Assembly: GCF_024227715.1 (NCBI RefSeq)
Contig: NZ_CP100448.1
Coordinates: 2,005,655-2,069,654, forward strand
Reading direction: 5' to 3'
Length of the DNA stretch: 64,000 bases
Source: Halomarina litorea
GTDB lineage: Archaea; Halobacteriota; Halobacteria; Halobacteriales; Haloarculaceae
Part shown: positions 33,662-43,378 of the stretch, piece after piece
Position numbering within the stretch: position 1 is the first letter of the stretch
Layout: every line of letters starts with the position of its first letter
Translations under genes and position numbers: made by a program
The notes under the pieces: generated by a model
Told to the model about the DNA's origin: nothing
Database searches by the model: none
What the model saw: only the letters and a program-made list of their open reading frames with translations

Positions 33662-34912
33662 CTACTCCTCGTACAGCGGGAAGTCCGCACAGAGCGCGGC
33701 GACGTCCTCGGCGGCCTCGGCCTTCACGTCCTCGTCGTCGTGGTGTTCGACGACGCGGGCGATGATGTCGGCCACCTCCCGGGTGGCCGCCTCGTCGAAC
33801 CCGCGGGTCGTCAGGCCGGGCGTGCCGGCGCGGATTCCCGACGGGTTGAACGGCGAGCGGGTCTCGCCGGGGACGGTGTTCTTGTTGAGGACGATGCCGA
33901 CGTCCTCCAGTGCGCGCTCGGCGTCACCGCCCGTGGTCTCGGGATGCGAGTCGCGCAGGTCGACGAGAACGAGGTGCGTGTCGGTCCCGCCGGAGACGAT
34001 GGAGAAGCCGTGGTCGGCGAGCTGGTCCGAGAGCGCCTCGGCGTTGTCGACGACCTGCTGGGCGTACTCGCCGAACGCGGGCTGGAGCGCCTCCTTGAAG
34101 CCGACTGCCTTGCCCGCGATGTTGTGCATGAGGGGGCCGCCCTGTCCGCCGGGGAAGACGGCCGAGTCGATGTCGTCGGCGTGCTCCTCGCCGCACATGA
34201 TGATGCCGCCGCGACCGGCGCGGATGGTCTTGTGCGTGCTCCCGGTGACGAAGTCGGCGACGCCGACGGGCGAGGGGTGGACGCCCGCGGCGACCAGCCC
34301 CGTGATGTGCGCGATGTCCGCGAGATGGTAGGCACCCACGTCGTCTGCGACCTGCTGGATGCGCTCCCACTCGACCTCGCGGGGGTACGCCGAGTAGCCC
34401 GAAACGATCATGTCCGGTTCGAACTCCTCGGCCGTCTCCGCGAGGCCCTCGTAGTCGACGTAGCCCGTCTCGGGGTCGACCTCGTACTGTTCGACCTCGA
34501 ACAGTTGCCCCGTGAAGTTCGCGGGGTGGCCGTGGCTCAGGTGGCCGCCGTGGGTCAGCGAGAGCGAGAGGATCTTGTCGCCGGGGTCGAGCGTCGCGAG
34601 GTAGACGCCCATGTTCGCCTGCGTCCCGGAGTGGGGCTGGACGTTGACGTGTTCCGCGCCCCACAGTTCCTTCGCGCGGTCGATGGCGAGTTCCTCGACG
34701 TCGTCGGCGTACTCACAGCCAGCGTAGTAGCGCTCGCCGGGGTACCCCTCCGCGTACTTGTTGGTGAGGGCGCTCCCCTGCGCTTCGAGGACGGCCTTCG
34801 AGACGTGATTCTCGCTCGCGATCATGGCCAGCGTCTCGCGCTGGCGGTCGAGTTCCCCCGCCAGTGCGTCGGCGACTTCCGGGTCGACCTCCCGGACGTG
34901 GTCGTACTCCAT
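33662..34912 (-). CDS. glyA: Serine hydroxymethyltransferase GlyA
   Basis: A 416-residue SHMT of normal archaeal length. It has LAMIASENHVSKAVLEAQGS, NKYAEGYPGERYYAGCE, HGGHLSHG, the PLP lysine in GSTHKTIRAGRGG (Lys228), and the substrate loop FNPSGIRAGTPGLTTRG. It moves the serine hydroxymethyl carbon to tetrahydrofolate, making glycine. ATG 34912 gives MEYDHVREVDPEVA; the open frame nine codons upstream adds only Gly/Pro text. It diverges from the CHAT-protein gene. Confidence 0.97.
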   Translation of the reverse strand: MEYDHVREVDPEVADALAGELDRQRETLAMIASENHVSKAVLEAQGSALTNKYAEGYPGERYYAGCEYADDVEELAIDRAKELWGAEHVNVQPHSGTQANMGVYLATLDPGDKILSLSLTHGGHLSHGHPANFTGQLFEVEQYEVDPETGYVDYEGLAETAEEFEPDMIVSGYSAYPREVEWERIQQVADDVGAYHLADIAHITGLVAAGVHPSPVGVADFVTGSTHKTIRAGRGGIIMCGEEHADDIDSAVFPGGQGGPLMHNIAGKAVGFKEALQPAFGEYAQQVVDNAEALSDQLADHGFSIVSGGTDTHLVLVDLRDSHPETTGGDAERALEDVGIVLNKNTVPGETRSPFNPSGIRAGTPGLTTRGFDEAATREVADIIARVVEHHDDEDVKAEAAEDVAALCADFPLYEE

Positions 34913-34997
34913 ATCCGGCCCTCCGGGATGCCCTCCCAATAATCTACCCCTCCATACGTCGATACACCTTTACGAGTCTGAGTGGACTACGTGATAG

Positions 34998-36689
34998 ATG
35001 ACCGAGCGCGGTCCGGACGCGTCGTCGCCCGGCGACGAAGCCGGCCCCCCCGAACTCGTGGTCGCGCCCACCGTCGACGGCCTCGCGACGGCGCTTACCC
35101 ACATGCCCTCCCGCCTCCGGGCGACGGCCCCGGAGCGCTCACACCCCGCCGTTCGCCCCCACCCGCCGCTGGTCACGGTCGACCCGGACGCCGCGGAGAC
35201 GACGGTACCCGGGTCGCTCGCGGCGGCGCGTCCCGACACCGAGGTCCACCTCGCGCTCCCGGCCGACCGCGAGCACCTGTTCGTCGCCGCGCCGCTGGCG
35301 TACTACCTCGGTGCCGCGGTGTCGGTCGGGGCCGACCAGCCGCGCCTGTCGACCCCCGGCGGTGAGTACGACCTCGACCCGTTGCCGGCGTTCCAGCACG
35401 AGGCCGCGGCACTCCTGCGCGACGTCTTCACCCTCGACGCCCTCGTCCGCGACCTGTCCGGCGAGGGGCGCGCGTGTCGCGTCGACCTCGTGACCGACCT
35501 CGGCCTCTGCCCGGCGGGCCTGCGCGGGTCGTCGCCGGGCGTCCGCCTCGACGCCTACCTCGGCGTCGACCGGGACCGACTCGCCGGGAAGCGTCCGGAG
35601 TGGCACCTCTCGACGTACGCGGACCCGACCGACGAGGCGCTTCGGTGTCTCCCCTTCCTGCTCGACGCCCTCAGCCTCGTCTACCTGCCGGAGTCCTCGG
35701 ACATCGACGAACAGGGCCTCCTGCGCTACTCGCTTGACGACTTCTACCGGTGTCCCCCCGGCGGGCGGGTCGCCTCGGTGGACGTCGTCGAACCGACGCT
35801 CCACTCGGGCGAACTCCACGCGTGGCTGGCGGAGGGCGTTCCCGTCTCCGCGTTCACTCTCAGGCCGGCGGCGTTCGAACACCGGCGCGCGGCCCCGCCG
35901 CCGGACGGCGAACTCGCCGTTGCGGTCGTCCTCAACGACGGTTCGATGGCAGGCGAACACGACGTGGTCGCCGACACCTACCGGAAACGTGCTGAGGGCC
36001 TGCCCGCGTCGGTGTCGCTCTACGAGTCGCTGCGCGCCGACGAACTGGCCGACCTGCTGGAGACGCCACACGACTTCGTCCACTACATCGGCCACTGTGA
36101 GGTTGACGGCCTCCGGTGTCCGGACGGGAGCCTCGACTGCGCGAGTCTCTCGACGTCGGGGGCGCGGACCTTCTTCCTCAACGCCTGCGGGTCGTTCCAC
36201 CAGGGACGGACGCTCGTCGACGCGGGGAGCATCGCGGGAGCCGTCACGCTCCGGACCGTGCTGAACGAACAGGCGGCGACGGTCGGGACGACGTTCGCCC
36301 GCCTGCTGATGCGCGGATTCGGCATCGAGCGGGCGATGCAACTGGCCCGCCGACAGATCATGATGAGCACCGACTACACCGTCGTCGGGGACGGCACGTT
36401 CTCGCTCACGGACGCCGAGCCGTCGGTCCTGAAGGTCGAACCCCTCGGACAGGACGGCGGGAACGACGAGGAGGCCGCCTACGCCGTCACCTACACCGTC
36501 CCCGCGGACGGCTGGCCGGGCGGAAGCTACCGCGCACCCTTCGAGGACTGTCGACGACTGCGGGGGACGACCGTCGAGACGACGCTTAATGCCCCGCAGG
36601 TGCGCGATTTGCTCGAAGAACGATGGATGCCGGTCGTCCACGACGGGTCGCTCCACTGGAGTGATGAATTCCTCGTGAATTTCACGTAA
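34998..36689 (+). CDS. CHAT-type caspase-fold protease-like protein
   Basis: A 563-residue soluble protein. Near the C-terminus is a His-Cys dyad arranged as in CHAT peptidases: VHYIGHCEVDG (His366 as the likely base) and TFFLNACGSFHQG (Cys397 as the likely nucleophile), followed by AVTLRTVLNEQAATVGTTFARLL, shown partly as the usual GA-x-A strand-helix. The first 300 residues are acidic and mixed alpha/beta with no named domain. CHAT proteins cut target proteins in death, defence or signalling systems. No partner such as TPR or Cas genes adjoins it. Next on the same strand is a TbsP-like regulator. Confidence 0.7.
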   Translation: MTERGPDASSPGDEAGPPELVVAPTVDGLATALTHMPSRLRATAPERSHPAVRPHPPLVTVDPDAAETTVPGSLAAARPDTEVHLALPADREHLFVAAPLAYYLGAAVSVGADQPRLSTPGGEYDLDPLPAFQHEAAALLRDVFTLDALVRDLSGEGRACRVDLVTDLGLCPAGLRGSSPGVRLDAYLGVDRDRLAGKRPEWHLSTYADPTDEALRCLPFLLDALSLVYLPESSDIDEQGLLRYSLDDFYRCPPGGRVASVDVVEPTLHSGELHAWLAEGVPVSAFTLRPAAFEHRRAAPPPDGELAVAVVLNDGSMAGEHDVVADTYRKRAEGLPASVSLYESLRADELADLLETPHDFVHYIGHCEVDGLRCPDGSLDCASLSTSGARTFFLNACGSFHQGRTLVDAGSIAGAVTLRTVLNEQAATVGTTFARLLMRGFGIERAMQLARRQIMMSTDYTVVGDGTFSLTDAEPSVLKVEPLGQDGGNDEEAAYAVTYTVPADGWPGGSYRAPFEDCRRLRGTTVETTLNAPQVRDLLEERWMPVVHDGSLHWSDEFLVNFT

Positions 36690-36780: not shown

Positions 36781-36790
36781 AAATTAAATA
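36781..36790 (+). promoter_or_regulatory. TATA box of the TbsP-like gene
   Basis: aaattaaata lies 24-33 bp before the ATG at 36814 within a clearly AT-rich 90-bp stretch. It gives a leaderless-type promoter that separates this gene from the CHAT gene upstream. Confidence 0.55.
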
Positions 36791-36813: not shown

Positions 36814-37626
36814 ATGAACTCGAACTTACTCGAGTCAGATGTGGAAGCGCTCCTCGGAGCGGCACTCGCGGACGCCGACGGTACGGCCTATCTGGTCAAC
36901 CCGTCCGCCGAGACGCTCGAAGCCGCCATCGAGGCCGTCGAGGGAGCCGAGGACGTCTCGGTCCGCCTGCTCGGCGGGGAACGAACGCTGAAGGACGTCT
37001 TCGGCGACTTCATCGTCGCGAGCACGGCCGCCGACCTCATCGACGCCGGTCGCCTCGAACTCCGGACGTTCGACGACGCGGCGAACACCCTCATCATCAC
37101 CGAGGACGCCGTCGTCGCCGTCGTCGCCGCCGGTGACATGGTCGCGGGTCTCGTCACCGACGACGACGACTTCGTCGACCGCGCCCTCGAGCAGTACGCC
37201 GACACGTGGGAGGCGAGCGAGAGCTTCAACCTCCGGACGCCCGCCATCACGCGCGTCCGTCAGTCCCTCTCGACCGAAATCGGCGACGACGTCGCCGCCG
37301 ACTTCGACAGCGTCCTCGCGTCGCTGGAGACGGCCCGCGGCGACGGCGACGGCCTCGACGAGGTCACCATCAGCCTGCTCGTGGCCGCGAAGAACGAGGA
37401 ACTGCTCTACGACATCAGCAAGTGGGGCGAGGACGTCGGCATCGCGTCGAAGGCGACGTTCTCCCGCACCAAGACCCGGCTGGAGGAGATGGGCCTCATC
37501 GACACCGAGAAGGTCCCCATCGACGTGGGCCGCCCGCGCCTCCGCCTCGTCCTCGGCGACGACCGCCTGCGCGGTGCCGACAACGGCGAACTCGCCAACG
37601 TCGCCCAGTCCCTGCTGGCGTCCTGA
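36814..37626 (+). CDS. tbsP: TbsP-like transcriptional regulator (DUF5821 type)
   Basis: A 270-residue protein resembling haloarchaeal TbsP. The N-terminal 180 residues form an acidic alpha/beta domain (GTAYLVNPSAETLEAAIEAV, RLLGGERTLKDVF). The last 90 hold a winged helix-turn-helix: LLVAAKNEELLYDISKWGEDVGIASKATFSRTKTRLEE is the DNA-reading part, quoted only in pieces: SKATFSRTKTRLEEMGL. TbsP acts with TrmB on glycolytic gapII control in Haloferax by published work, but assignment of this gene rests on recalled similarity. It is preceded by its own strong TATA box. Confidence 0.65.
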   Translation: MNSNLLESDVEALLGAALADADGTAYLVNPSAETLEAAIEAVEGAEDVSVRLLGGERTLKDVFGDFIVASTAADLIDAGRLELRTFDDAANTLIITEDAVVAVVAAGDMVAGLVTDDDDFVDRALEQYADTWEASESFNLRTPAITRVRQSLSTEIGDDVAADFDSVLASLETARGDGDGLDEVTISLLVAAKNEELLYDISKWGEDVGIASKATFSRTKTRLEEMGLIDTEKVPIDVGRPRLRLVLGDDRLRGADNGELANVAQSLLAS

Positions 37627-37708: not shown

Positions 37709-37762
37709 ATGACGGACGAACGGGAACGCCTTTTTGACCGTCGGACCAGCGAGGAGACATGA
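37709..37762 (+). other. 17-codon upstream ORF overlapping the YcaO start
   Basis: ATG 37709 encodes MTDERERLFDRRTSEET and its TGA overlaps the YcaO ATG as ATGA. It has no Cys, so it is a poor azoline precursor. Its middle contains a T-rich run that could be the TATA element of the YcaO promoter, which would make the frame fortuitous. Confidence 0.25.
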
Positions 37763-39459
37763 CTGTCGCACTCGTCGGTGACGGCCCCGCGGCGGACGCG
37801 GTCCGGGTGACCCTGACCGACGCCGACGCGGCGCTGACGACGACCGACCCGGCTGGAATCGGGGAGGCGACTCTCGCCGTCGTCGTCGCGGGCGTCGGCG
37901 AGGGAGTCCACGAGACCGCGAACGAGGTGGCCCTCGACGCGGGCGTCCCCTGGCTCGCGGTGGAACTGGGCGGTGTCGGCGCCACTGCGGTGTCGGGCGT
38001 CGAGGCCGCCGTCTCCGGCTTCGGACCCGATACGGCGTGCTACGACTGCCTCGGGGGACGGGTCGCCGCGAACCGCGACGGGAACGACGGGGGGGACGCG
38101 ACGCCCCCGGACGCGGCGACGGCCCGTCTCGCGGGCGCACTCGCCGGTCGCGAGGCCGTCCGCCTCCTCGACGGCGCCTCGGACGTCATCGGGTCCGTCA
38201 CCGAGGTTCCTCACGCGCGGCGCGACCTCCTCCCCCTCCCGCGCTGTACGTGCGGATCCGGGGTCGACCGGACGCTCCGACAGGAGTACGCCCCGCAGGA
38301 CCTCGACGGCGCGCTCGACCGGGCGGAACGCGCCGTCGACGACCGCGTCGGCATCGTCCGGCAGGTGGGCGAGGTGGCGTCGTTCCCTGTCCCTTACTAC
38401 CTCGCGCAGGTGGGCGAGACGACCGGCTTCAGCGACGTACAGGCGAGCCAGCAGGCCGCGGGGGTGGCGCTGGACTGGGACGCCGCGTACATGAAGGCCA
38501 TCGGCGAGGCGCTGGAACGCTACAGCGCGGGCGTCTTCTCGACGGCCGACTTCGGCACCGCCCGGGCCGGCGACGTGCCGAACACGGTCGGACTGGACGA
38601 GTTCGTCCTCCCCGACGACGTGGAGACGGGCGGCCAGCGCCGGTGGGTCACCGGCGAGCACCTCCACGACGGCGAGTCCGTGTTCCTCCCCGCCGAGCGC
38701 GTGCAGTTCCCCCTCTCGGGTGCGGGGCCGACCATCACGACGGGCCTCGGCCTCGGGAACTCGGGTGCCGAGGCGCTCGTCGCGGGCCTCACCGAAGTCG
38801 TGGAACGCGACGCCGCCATGCTCTCGTGGTACTCGACGTACGACCCGCTCGGACTCGCCGTCGACGACGAGGGGTACGACACCCTCGTCCGGCGCGCCCG
38901 CTCGGAGGACCTCTCGGTGACGGCGACGCTCCTGACGCAGGACGTGGACGTGCCGGTCGTGAGCGTCGCCGTCCACCGAGAGGGCGAGTGGCCCCGATTC
39001 GCCCTCGGGACGGACGCCGACCTCGACGTGGCGAACGCGGCCCGCGCTGCGTGCTGCGAGGCGCTCCAGAACTGGACGGAGCTCTCGCGGATGGGGAAGG
39101 CGGACGCCCGGAACGCGGGCGGACGCATCGGCCACTTCGCCTCCCTGCCCGACTCCGCGCGGGCGTTCACCGACCCCGAGACGACGATACCCGCCGACAG
39201 CGTCGGCGACGACGTCGCGGGGGAGGACGAACTCGACGAACTACTCGGACGGGTGGGAGACGCCGGACTCGACGCCTACGCCGCCCGCCTGACTCCGCGC
39301 GACGTGGAGCGACTGGGCTTCGAGGCGGTTCGCGTGCTGGTCCCCGAGGCGCAACCGCTGTTCATGGGCGAGGCCTACTTCGGGGAGCGCGCGGAGACGG
39401 TTCCGGGGGACCTCGGGTTCGAGGCTCGACTCGGCCGGGAACACCACCCGTTCCCCTGA
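37759..39459 (+). CDS. Single-chain YcaO-family protein with N-terminal E1-like zinc domain
   Basis: A 566-residue protein. Residues 1-165 form a ThiF/E1-like Rossmann fold (TVALVGDGPAADAVRVTL) with a zinc tetrad C94, C97, C163, C165 (CYDCLGG and CTCGSG). From about 190 follows a YcaO domain, with ATP/Mg acidic helices AYMKAIGEALERYSAG, LVAGLTEVVERDAAML and ARAACCEALQNWTELSR. The chain ends EHHPFP, near the Pro-rich end of azoline-forming YcaO proteins. YcaO enzymes phosphorylate amide oxygens to make azolines, thioamides or amidines. No precursor peptide or TfuA gene adjoins, so its target is unknown. Confidence 0.82.
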   Translation: MTVALVGDGPAADAVRVTLTDADAALTTTDPAGIGEATLAVVVAGVGEGVHETANEVALDAGVPWLAVELGGVGATAVSGVEAAVSGFGPDTACYDCLGGRVAANRDGNDGGDATPPDAATARLAGALAGREAVRLLDGASDVIGSVTEVPHARRDLLPLPRCTCGSGVDRTLRQEYAPQDLDGALDRAERAVDDRVGIVRQVGEVASFPVPYYLAQVGETTGFSDVQASQQAAGVALDWDAAYMKAIGEALERYSAGVFSTADFGTARAGDVPNTVGLDEFVLPDDVETGGQRRWVTGEHLHDGESVFLPAERVQFPLSGAGPTITTGLGLGNSGAEALVAGLTEVVERDAAMLSWYSTYDPLGLAVDDEGYDTLVRRARSEDLSVTATLLTQDVDVPVVSVAVHREGEWPRFALGTDADLDVANAARAACCEALQNWTELSRMGKADARNAGGRIGHFASLPDSARAFTDPETTIPADSVGDDVAGEDELDELLGRVGDAGLDAYAARLTPRDVERLGFEAVRVLVPEAQPLFMGEAYFGERAETVPGDLGFEARLGREHHPFP

Positions 39460-41962: not shown

Positions 41963-43378
41963 ATGCGACTCGTCGCCCTCTGCTGTTGTCTGCTCGTCGT
42001 CCTCGCGGGGTGTAGCGGCGCGTTCCCCGGTGGAGTGCCGGGAGGAACGCTCGGCGACGGGGCGTCGACCCCCGGAACCGAACCCGGAAGCGGCGACGAG
42101 GTCGCACCCGACGCCGTCCCTCTCGGGGGGAACGGGACATTCAGCGTCCACTTCATCAACGTCGGCCAGTCCTCCGCGACGCTGGTGGTCGCCCCCTCGG
42201 GCGAGACGGTGCTCGTGGACACGGGCGACTTCACCGACCGCGGGGAGGATGTCCTCGACTACCTCCGGGCGCGGGGCATCGACCGAATCGACCACCTCGT
42301 GACGAGTCACGCCGACGCTGACCACATCGGGGGCCACGCCGCCGTCATCGAGTACTTCGAGACGGAAGGTGAGGGCGTGGGCGCGGTGTACGACCCCGGC
42401 ATCGCCGCCTCGACGCGCACCTACGAACGCTACCTCGACGCCGTCGAACAGTACGACGTGCCCCTCTACCTCACGCTCGCGGGCGACGAGATTCCTGTGG
42501 CCGGCCTGAACGTGTCGGTGCTCGCACCGCCCGAGGACTACCTCGCGGGCGAGGCGCGCAACGAGAACAGCCTCGTCCTCCGGGTCGACTACCGGGAGGC
42601 GAGCGTGCTCCTCACCGGCGACGGGGAGGACGAGGCGGAGTCGTACCTCGTCGCGAACCACCGCGAGGCGCTGAACGTCACCGTCCTCGCGGCGGGCCAC
42701 CACGGGAGTCGCTCCAGCAGTTCGGCGGCGTTCCTCGAGGCCGCCTCGCCCCAGGTGATCACGGTATCGAGCGCCTATGACTCGCGCTACGGCCACCCAC
42801 ACGAGGAGGTCCTCCGCCGACTCGCGGCCCTGTCGGTGCCCGTCTTCTGGACCGCGACGCACGGCGACACCGTCGTCGCCAGCGACGGCCGGAACGTGAC
42901 CGTCTACACCCAGCGGACGGCACCGACGGCCCCCCTCGACCTGCGGGCCAGCGAGGCTATCGCGCCCGACGCGACCGACTCGCTCCAACCGCGCCTGACC
43001 TTCGCCGCGGGCGGGTCCGCGGGACCACCCACGGGGATACCCGCGAGCGACCTCGCCGTCGACTCGGTCCACGCGGACGCCGCGGGCGACGACCGGACCA
43101 ACCTGAACGACGAGTACGTCGTCTTCGAGAACACCGGCGAGGAGACCATCGACCTCTCCGGGTGGACCGTCAGCGACGAGTCCGGACGGACCTACACCTT
43201 CCCAGACGGGACGACGCTCGGTCCGGGCGAGCAGTTGACCCTGCGGACGGGAAGCGGGTCGAACACCGCCGCCGAACACTACTGGGGCGCAGCGGGGCCG
43301 GTGTGGAACAACGACGGCGACACCGTCACGGTCGAAACGGCCAACGGGTCGCGGGTCCTCACGGAGGCGTATGCCTAG
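41963..43378 (+). CDS. Exported lipoprotein: ComEC-type MBL hydrolase fused to a lamin-tail domain
   Basis: A 471-residue protein with a Sec-type lipobox (VVLAGC, Cys17), so it is anchored outside the cell. Residues 58-320 are an MBL domain of the ComEC/Rec2 class: FINVGQSSATLVVAPSGETV, metal motif HADADHIGGH (116-125), a second site AAGHHGSRSSSS. Residues ~355-465 form a lamin-tail domain (NDEYVVFENTGEETIDLSGW). LTD domains occur on secreted nucleases and may bind DNA or surfaces. It overlaps the DUF3006 gene by eight bases. Confidence 0.86.
   Translation: MRLVALCCCLLVVLAGCSGAFPGGVPGGTLGDGASTPGTEPGSGDEVAPDAVPLGGNGTFSVHFINVGQSSATLVVAPSGETVLVDTGDFTDRGEDVLDYLRARGIDRIDHLVTSHADADHIGGHAAVIEYFETEGEGVGAVYDPGIAASTRTYERYLDAVEQYDVPLYLTLAGDEIPVAGLNVSVLAPPEDYLAGEARNENSLVLRVDYREASVLLTGDGEDEAESYLVANHREALNVTVLAAGHHGSRSSSSAAFLEAASPQVITVSSAYDSRYGHPHEEVLRRLAALSVPVFWTATHGDTVVASDGRNVTVYTQRTAPTAPLDLRASEAIAPDATDSLQPRLTFAAGGSAGPPTGIPASDLAVDSVHADAAGDDRTNLNDEYVVFENTGEETIDLSGWTVSDESGRTYTFPDGTTLGPGEQLTLRTGSGSNTAAEHYWGAAGPVWNNDGDTVTVETANGSRVLTEAYA

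Follow-up and report, generated by a model that had tools for sequence, protein, structure and literature searches.

A separase-like caspase-fold protease gene paired with tbsP across Halobacteria, and a possible cleavage site for it in the TbsP linker

The Halomarina litorea genome encodes a CHAT-like caspase-fold protease directly upstream of the gene for the transcription regulator TbsP, and in Halobacteria the presence of this protease coincides with strict conservation of four residues, TARG, in the linker between the N-terminal part of TbsP and its winged helix. The two genes may constitute a haloarchaeal module of TbsP and a clan CD (separase/CHAT-like) cysteine protease that operates outside CRISPR. 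A signal acting through the N-terminal regions of the protease would activate it, the activated protease would cut TbsP after Arg175 in the (S)-L-E-T-A-R|G-D-G linker, and the cut would part the N-terminal domain from the winged-helix DNA-binding domain, switching the TbsP regulon. We give this reading an even chance of being correct. Its evidence comprises a predicted caspase fold, an invariant His-Cys dyad, pairing of the two genes across families, ectopic duplication of the pair, and protease-dependent conservation of TARG, from which we infer the proteolysis, Arg at P1, the cut at TARG, the direction of the effect, and the existence of a trigger. TbsP is the favoured candidate substrate.

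The protease gene occupies positions 34998–36689 (forward strand) of the 64,000-nucleotide stretch of DNA analyzed here (the window) and encodes 563 residues. The sequence reads HYIGH(366) and FFLNAC(397)GS, in agreement with the CHAT-type pattern HxxGH ... (N/S)AC. The ORF and its His-Cys pair are in place as the earlier note had claimed, and homologs share 60–66% identity in other Halomarina and 40–50% in many haloarchaeal families. Halomarina halobia, H. oriensis, and H. rubra rank nearest to this genome among named species. The predicted catalytic residues His366 (codon 36093–36095, forward) and Cys397 (36186–36188, forward) are unchanged, as is H362, in all 57 orthologs, and the H/C pair occurs in 138 of the 141 family rows in which neither column is a gap. 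In the exceptions both residues are gone, mostly along with N313 and E320. The latter belong to a segment that follows the first strand of the catalytic domain, N313-D314-xx-M317-xx-E320 (35934–35957, forward), of which N313, M317, and E320 are found in 138 of 150 family rows and are missing from dyad-less members. Loss of N313 and E320 alongside the dyad is expected if these residues serve catalysis, and the segment could hold the acids of an S1 pocket. Both dyad residues, and in most cases N313 and E320 as well, have disappeared from divergent members at loci L136 (genome G076), L137 (G061), L138 (G080), and L133 (Methanocella-like); judging from their sequences, these are likely pseudoproteases.

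The Pfam CHAT model (PF12770) matches residues 323–458 at 18.1 bits, below its gathering cut-off of 24, and we therefore use the term CHAT-like and do not file the protein as a Pfam CHAT member. Pfam gave no domain over residues 1–320, NCBIfam and PADLOC scans of the protease gave no match, a PHROGs search returned nothing useful, and neither Pfam nor NCBIfam has an entry that the family matches above threshold. The protein represents a new CHAT-like family of caspase-fold proteases, with predicted peptidase activity.

An AlphaFold2 model built from an alignment of the 57 orthologs (mean pLDDT 87.8, pTM 0.88) divides the protein into an N-terminal alpha/beta region with no named domain (residues 18–298; 35049–35891, forward; pLDDT mostly above 90 up to residue 230), a caspase-fold catalytic domain (residues 306–464; 35913–36389, forward), and an unnamed C-terminal beta-rich domain in which G508 and W554 are conserved (residues 477–563; 36426–36686, forward). 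The catalytic domain follows the caspase order strand-helix-strand-helix-strand, hairpin, strand-helix-strand-helix-helix-strand. His366 lies directly after strand 3 (residues 358–364) and Cys397 ends strand 4 (residues 389–397), giving the caspase-hemoglobinase alpha/beta fold of clan CD together with its dyad, first His and then Cys, placed where strands 3 and 4 end. Foldseek matches in the PDB (among them 8tl0, 5fby, 1cvr, and 4jqy) were led by the SAVED-CHAT protein 8tl0 (E 7.7e-8) and separase ctSPD (2.6e-6), followed by gingipain R (4.3e-5) and procaspase-3 (2e-4). A 695-aa ortholog returned the identical match list, and a profile sequence search of the PDB yielded chance matches only. 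Structure prediction and family-wide conservation thus both back the CHAT/caspase fold and conserved dyad that had been claimed from the letters, and the dyad geometry is found within the predicted fold.

The N-terminal region had been described as large and without a named domain, and as a possible sensor of something new; the absence of a Pfam domain stands, but the region is shorter than in most orthologs, which carry ~140 extra N-terminal residues, predicted to be beta-rich. Halomarina, Halocatena, and Actinarchaeum do without them, and these same lineages cluster in the tree. Elsewhere in the H. litorea genome (contig C2, L142:5489-5887), a 133-aa ORF whose similarity to the family is confined to the N-terminal beta domain is, from its sequence, probably a relic. 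In the model, residues 58–251 run as strand 58, helix, strand 84, helix 91, strand 107, hairpin 116/122, insert, strand 204, helix, strand 227, and helix 238. Because this strand order resembles that of the catalytic half, we think that the N-terminal part may be a pseudo-caspase half of the kind found in separase and gingipain. An internal duplication of the catalytic half was not supported, the profile comparison being non-significant (E 0.07–0.15).

The gene downstream, tbsP (36814–37626, forward; 270 aa, PF19138 and PF23336), matches NF047393 at 390 bits over residues 1–268 against a cut-off of 300, and the neighbour previously called TbsP-like is thus TbsP itself, a full equivalog match. 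The pair sits inside a generally conserved block with the divergent glyA (33662–34939, reverse; PF00464, 508 bits), which is not thought to take part, and a YcaO-domain gene (37759–39459, forward; PF02624, 147 bits), which was used as a negative control. In 76 of 80 named loci, TbsP lies downstream of the protease and is read in the same direction, and it adjoins the ortholog in 31 of the 32 relatives that have one; the gene order is not peculiar to a single genome, and the dyad is conserved. A protease-tbsP operon was considered and rejected, as gaps of 43–848 nt and a TATA-box-like sequence read by eye ~27 nt before the TbsP ATG (AATTAAATA, 36782–36790, forward) point to separate promoters. 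The latter sequence suggests that tbsP may have its own promoter; a sigma-70-type promoter scan, being unsuited to archaea, was disregarded. In genomes that lack the protease, glyA, tbsP, and ycaO follow one another cleanly, and TbsP therefore works without the protease.

Adjacency alone is not taken as proof of a functional link, since glyA accompanies the protease almost as constantly, adjoining it in 66 of 80 loci. The protein could be a real protease with other substrates, its position beside tbsP being inherited synteny and the erosion of TARG in protease-negative genomes resulting from shared ancestry and faster evolution of TbsP. The empty sites, which are the conserved block minus the protease, and the greater average divergence of TbsP in protease-less genomes agree with this explanation, which we consider rather unlikely. 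Against it, genome G160 carries four further protease-to-TbsP pairs at other loci (L289, L290, L291, and L293) that occur without glyA, and its glyA-side TbsP has no protease beside it; the two genes therefore duplicate or travel together. As a separate observation, TbsP is expanded in G236 (11 copies) and G262 (8 copies), where none of the copies at the loci inspected has a protease alongside and most are without the TARG linker.

The link to TbsP, inferred in the earlier note, gains much strength beyond gene order from these co-duplicated pairs and from the protease-dependent conservation of the TbsP linker site. The linker, S-L-E-T-A-R(175)-G-D-G-D-G-L-D-E-V, joins the N-terminal part of TbsP to the winged helix; its core, S-L-E-T-A-R-G-D-G-D-G-L (residues 170–181), is encoded at 37321–37356 (forward), and the codon of Arg175, the proposed P1 residue, at 37336–37338 (forward). 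The linker is fixed in protease-positive genomes, and many protease-negative ones have an eroded, substituted, or shortened version of it. TARG is intact in 108 of 108 protease-positive rows of the discovery set versus 8 of 37 negative ones, with the losses on protease-negative branches. A replicate of 60 further genomes, picked after the prediction had been noted, gave 59 loci, with TARG intact in all 42 with the protease adjacent and in 10 of the 17 without it. The part of the noted prediction that had TARG invariably kept beside the protease was borne out, and the part that had more than 50% loss in protease-less replicate TbsP was missed (7 of 17 lost). In the two sets combined, TARG is intact in 150 of 150 protease-positive rows (131 of 131 distinct sequences) versus 17 of 53 without the ortholog, both by rows and by distinct sequences. 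The 17 protease-less TbsP proteins with TARG indicate that something else, such as recent loss, a paralog, or another role, can maintain the motif.

The scoring behind these counts was mostly by adjacency or locus, the 150 positive rows being loci with an adjacent gene plus four genomes with the gene known elsewhere. A paralog-like protease (33%) lies upstream at L230/L234, and G155 is excluded from the combined counts. The glyA-side TbsP of G160 (L223), which has an intact TARG, entered the counts as protease-negative despite homologs elsewhere in that genome, a choice that works against the hypothesis. When 44 protease-negative or uncertain genomes were searched for the protease, ortholog-level matches (40% or more) were found only in G155 and G160. 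Six genomes have both genes apart and keep TARG, namely Natronorubrum bangense, N. sulfidifaciens, Halostagnicola sp. A56, G055, G155, and G160. In three of the four ectopic pairs of G160, the divergent TbsP retains the linker Arg despite differing surroundings; the pair at L289 has no Arg at this position.

The motif was spotted by inspection before the statistics, and the co-variation figures include the discovery set. Of 13 pairs that were phylogenetically independent and lay on supported branches, 6.8 ran in the expected direction and 0.0 in the opposite one (sign test, median p 0.016). Every one of the 9–10 losses of TARG falls on a branch without the protease (P 5e-7 to 2e-6 against branch length). 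When 81 conserved TbsP columns were scanned, T173, R175, G176, and A174 ranked first to fourth, whereas the YcaO-neighbour control showed no signal at the TARG columns. Thus the test scaled to branch length still picks out four adjacent columns, the independent pairs all point one way, and the control is flat; together with the ectopic pairs free of glyA and the genomes that keep TARG with the two genes apart, this speaks against other substrates combined with inherited synteny. A site cut by the neighbouring protease would be expected to leave such a pattern, and cleavage at TARG is proposed on this basis.

The same covariation could arise if the TARG loop were a docking or regulatory surface, which the protease binds without cutting, or a DNA or dimer contact that the protease stabilizes. 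An Arg-Gly in a Gly-rich loop beside the winged helix could touch DNA, and the divergent sister subfamily without the dyad indicates that non-catalytic roles exist in the superfamily. However, every TbsP-linked member that is complete in the dyad region keeps the dyad, and the loop varies freely, deletions included, in the TbsP of genomes without the protease, where the HTH is otherwise conserved. We regard this explanation as improbable, and cleavage of TbsP remains the favoured reading.

An effector of abortive infection or cell death, similar to SAVED-CHAT or the bacterial caspase-like defence proteases, would account for a nearest solved structure that belongs to a type III CRISPR SAVED-CHAT protein, but is very improbable for a near-universal, vertically inherited core gene that lies beside metabolic genes and has no PADLOC match. 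As the earlier note had claimed, the ten neighbours scanned include no Cas, TPR, or defence partner. In the same scans, TbsP residues 148–232 (the winged helix) gave a weak match to the CRISPR regulator Csa3 (E 7e-4), and a protein at window positions 41963–43378, with a metallo-beta-lactamase fold, a lamin-tail domain, and several weak PADLOC matches, is likely of ComEC type. It is just as hard to credit that the protease is the source of the caspase-like activity in Haloferax volcanii extracts: a caspase fold is present in nearly all Halobacteria and the reported activity had no gene assigned, but that activity cuts after Asp and the extracts were inactive on Arg-type substrates (PMC3615174), whereas the proposed TbsP site has Arg.

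The family profile matched in 365 of the 391 Halobacteria genomes sampled (93%), whereas archaeal caspase-fold proteases have been described as having no clear gene homologues (PMC3615174). Outside Halobacteria, 197 sampled genomes of the phylum yielded members only in four, all of a single family and two of them Methanocella-like. The tree, built from 58 members, splits a TbsP-side clade, to which the H. litorea protein belongs, from a paralogous clade with 0–8 copies per genome. DUF7504 genes adjoin the paralogs in 11 of 20 loci, and the H. litorea genome has seven DUF7504 copies. Paralogs beside DUF7504 include those at L033, L034-L036, L038-L040, L043, L046, L050, and L051, among others, and some of these loci have a third, receiver-like gene (L035:4363-4896). 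Arg-Ser/Gly precedes a variable linker in all 20 paralog-linked DUF7504 proteins; these residues are a lead only because at least two unlinked copies have them too. More tentatively, and with somewhat less than even confidence, we suggest a class-wide, CRISPR-independent archaeal switch in which an Arg-specific protease of separase type, dating back to the ancestor of Halobacteria and with homologs in Methanocella-like genomes, would cut TbsP at the protease-dependent site, and the DUF7504-linked paralogs would form further pairs on the same plan.

The literature searched seems to contain no description of a conserved TbsP linker site that tracks a protease. If the cut is true, it would represent an archaeal case of regulated proteolysis acting on a DNA-binding regulator and a CHAT-type system operating outside CRISPR, and would offer a handle on the signal input to TbsP, a known metabolic regulator. 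The prediction is precise, involving one bond and one catalytic Cys, and is cheap to check. TbsP is the HVO_2861 type regulator, and in Haloferax volcanii it regulates gapII jointly with TrmB, as cited in PMC13286277.

Among characterized proteases, the type III CRISPR SAVED-CHAT protein (8tl0) shares the best fold match and the CHAT-type His-Cys dyad, but the haloarchaeal protease has no identified SAVED domain or adjoining Cas genes, and its genomic partner is a transcription factor. The usual CHAT companions (TPR, SAVED, and Cas) were found neither in the protease nor among the ten neighbours scanned. The TPR-CHAT protease Csx29 controls transcription by cutting its partner Csx30 in a flexible loop (PMC10028731), and this system (Craspase) provides a precedent for a CHAT protease that cuts a transcription regulator in a loop. 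Craspase requires Cas7-11 and target RNA, whereas the haloarchaeal pair consists of chromosomal core genes in which the proposed substrate itself binds DNA; the ten neighbours scanned include no Cas gene, the weak Csa3-like winged-helix match on TbsP being the only such signal. Separase (5fby, 5fc2) is the second-best fold match. Its substrate consensus, ExxR| (PMC6858450), resembles the ETAR|G site of TbsP, where P4 is Glu in 99 of 131 distinct sequences, and by analogy the protease may be specific for Arg at P1. Separase differs in being eukaryotic, very large, and controlled by securin, in cutting cohesin, and in sharing only ~11–18% identity in structural alignment, and its long helical-repeat N-terminus has no counterpart in the 563-aa haloarchaeal protease with its alpha/beta N-terminus.
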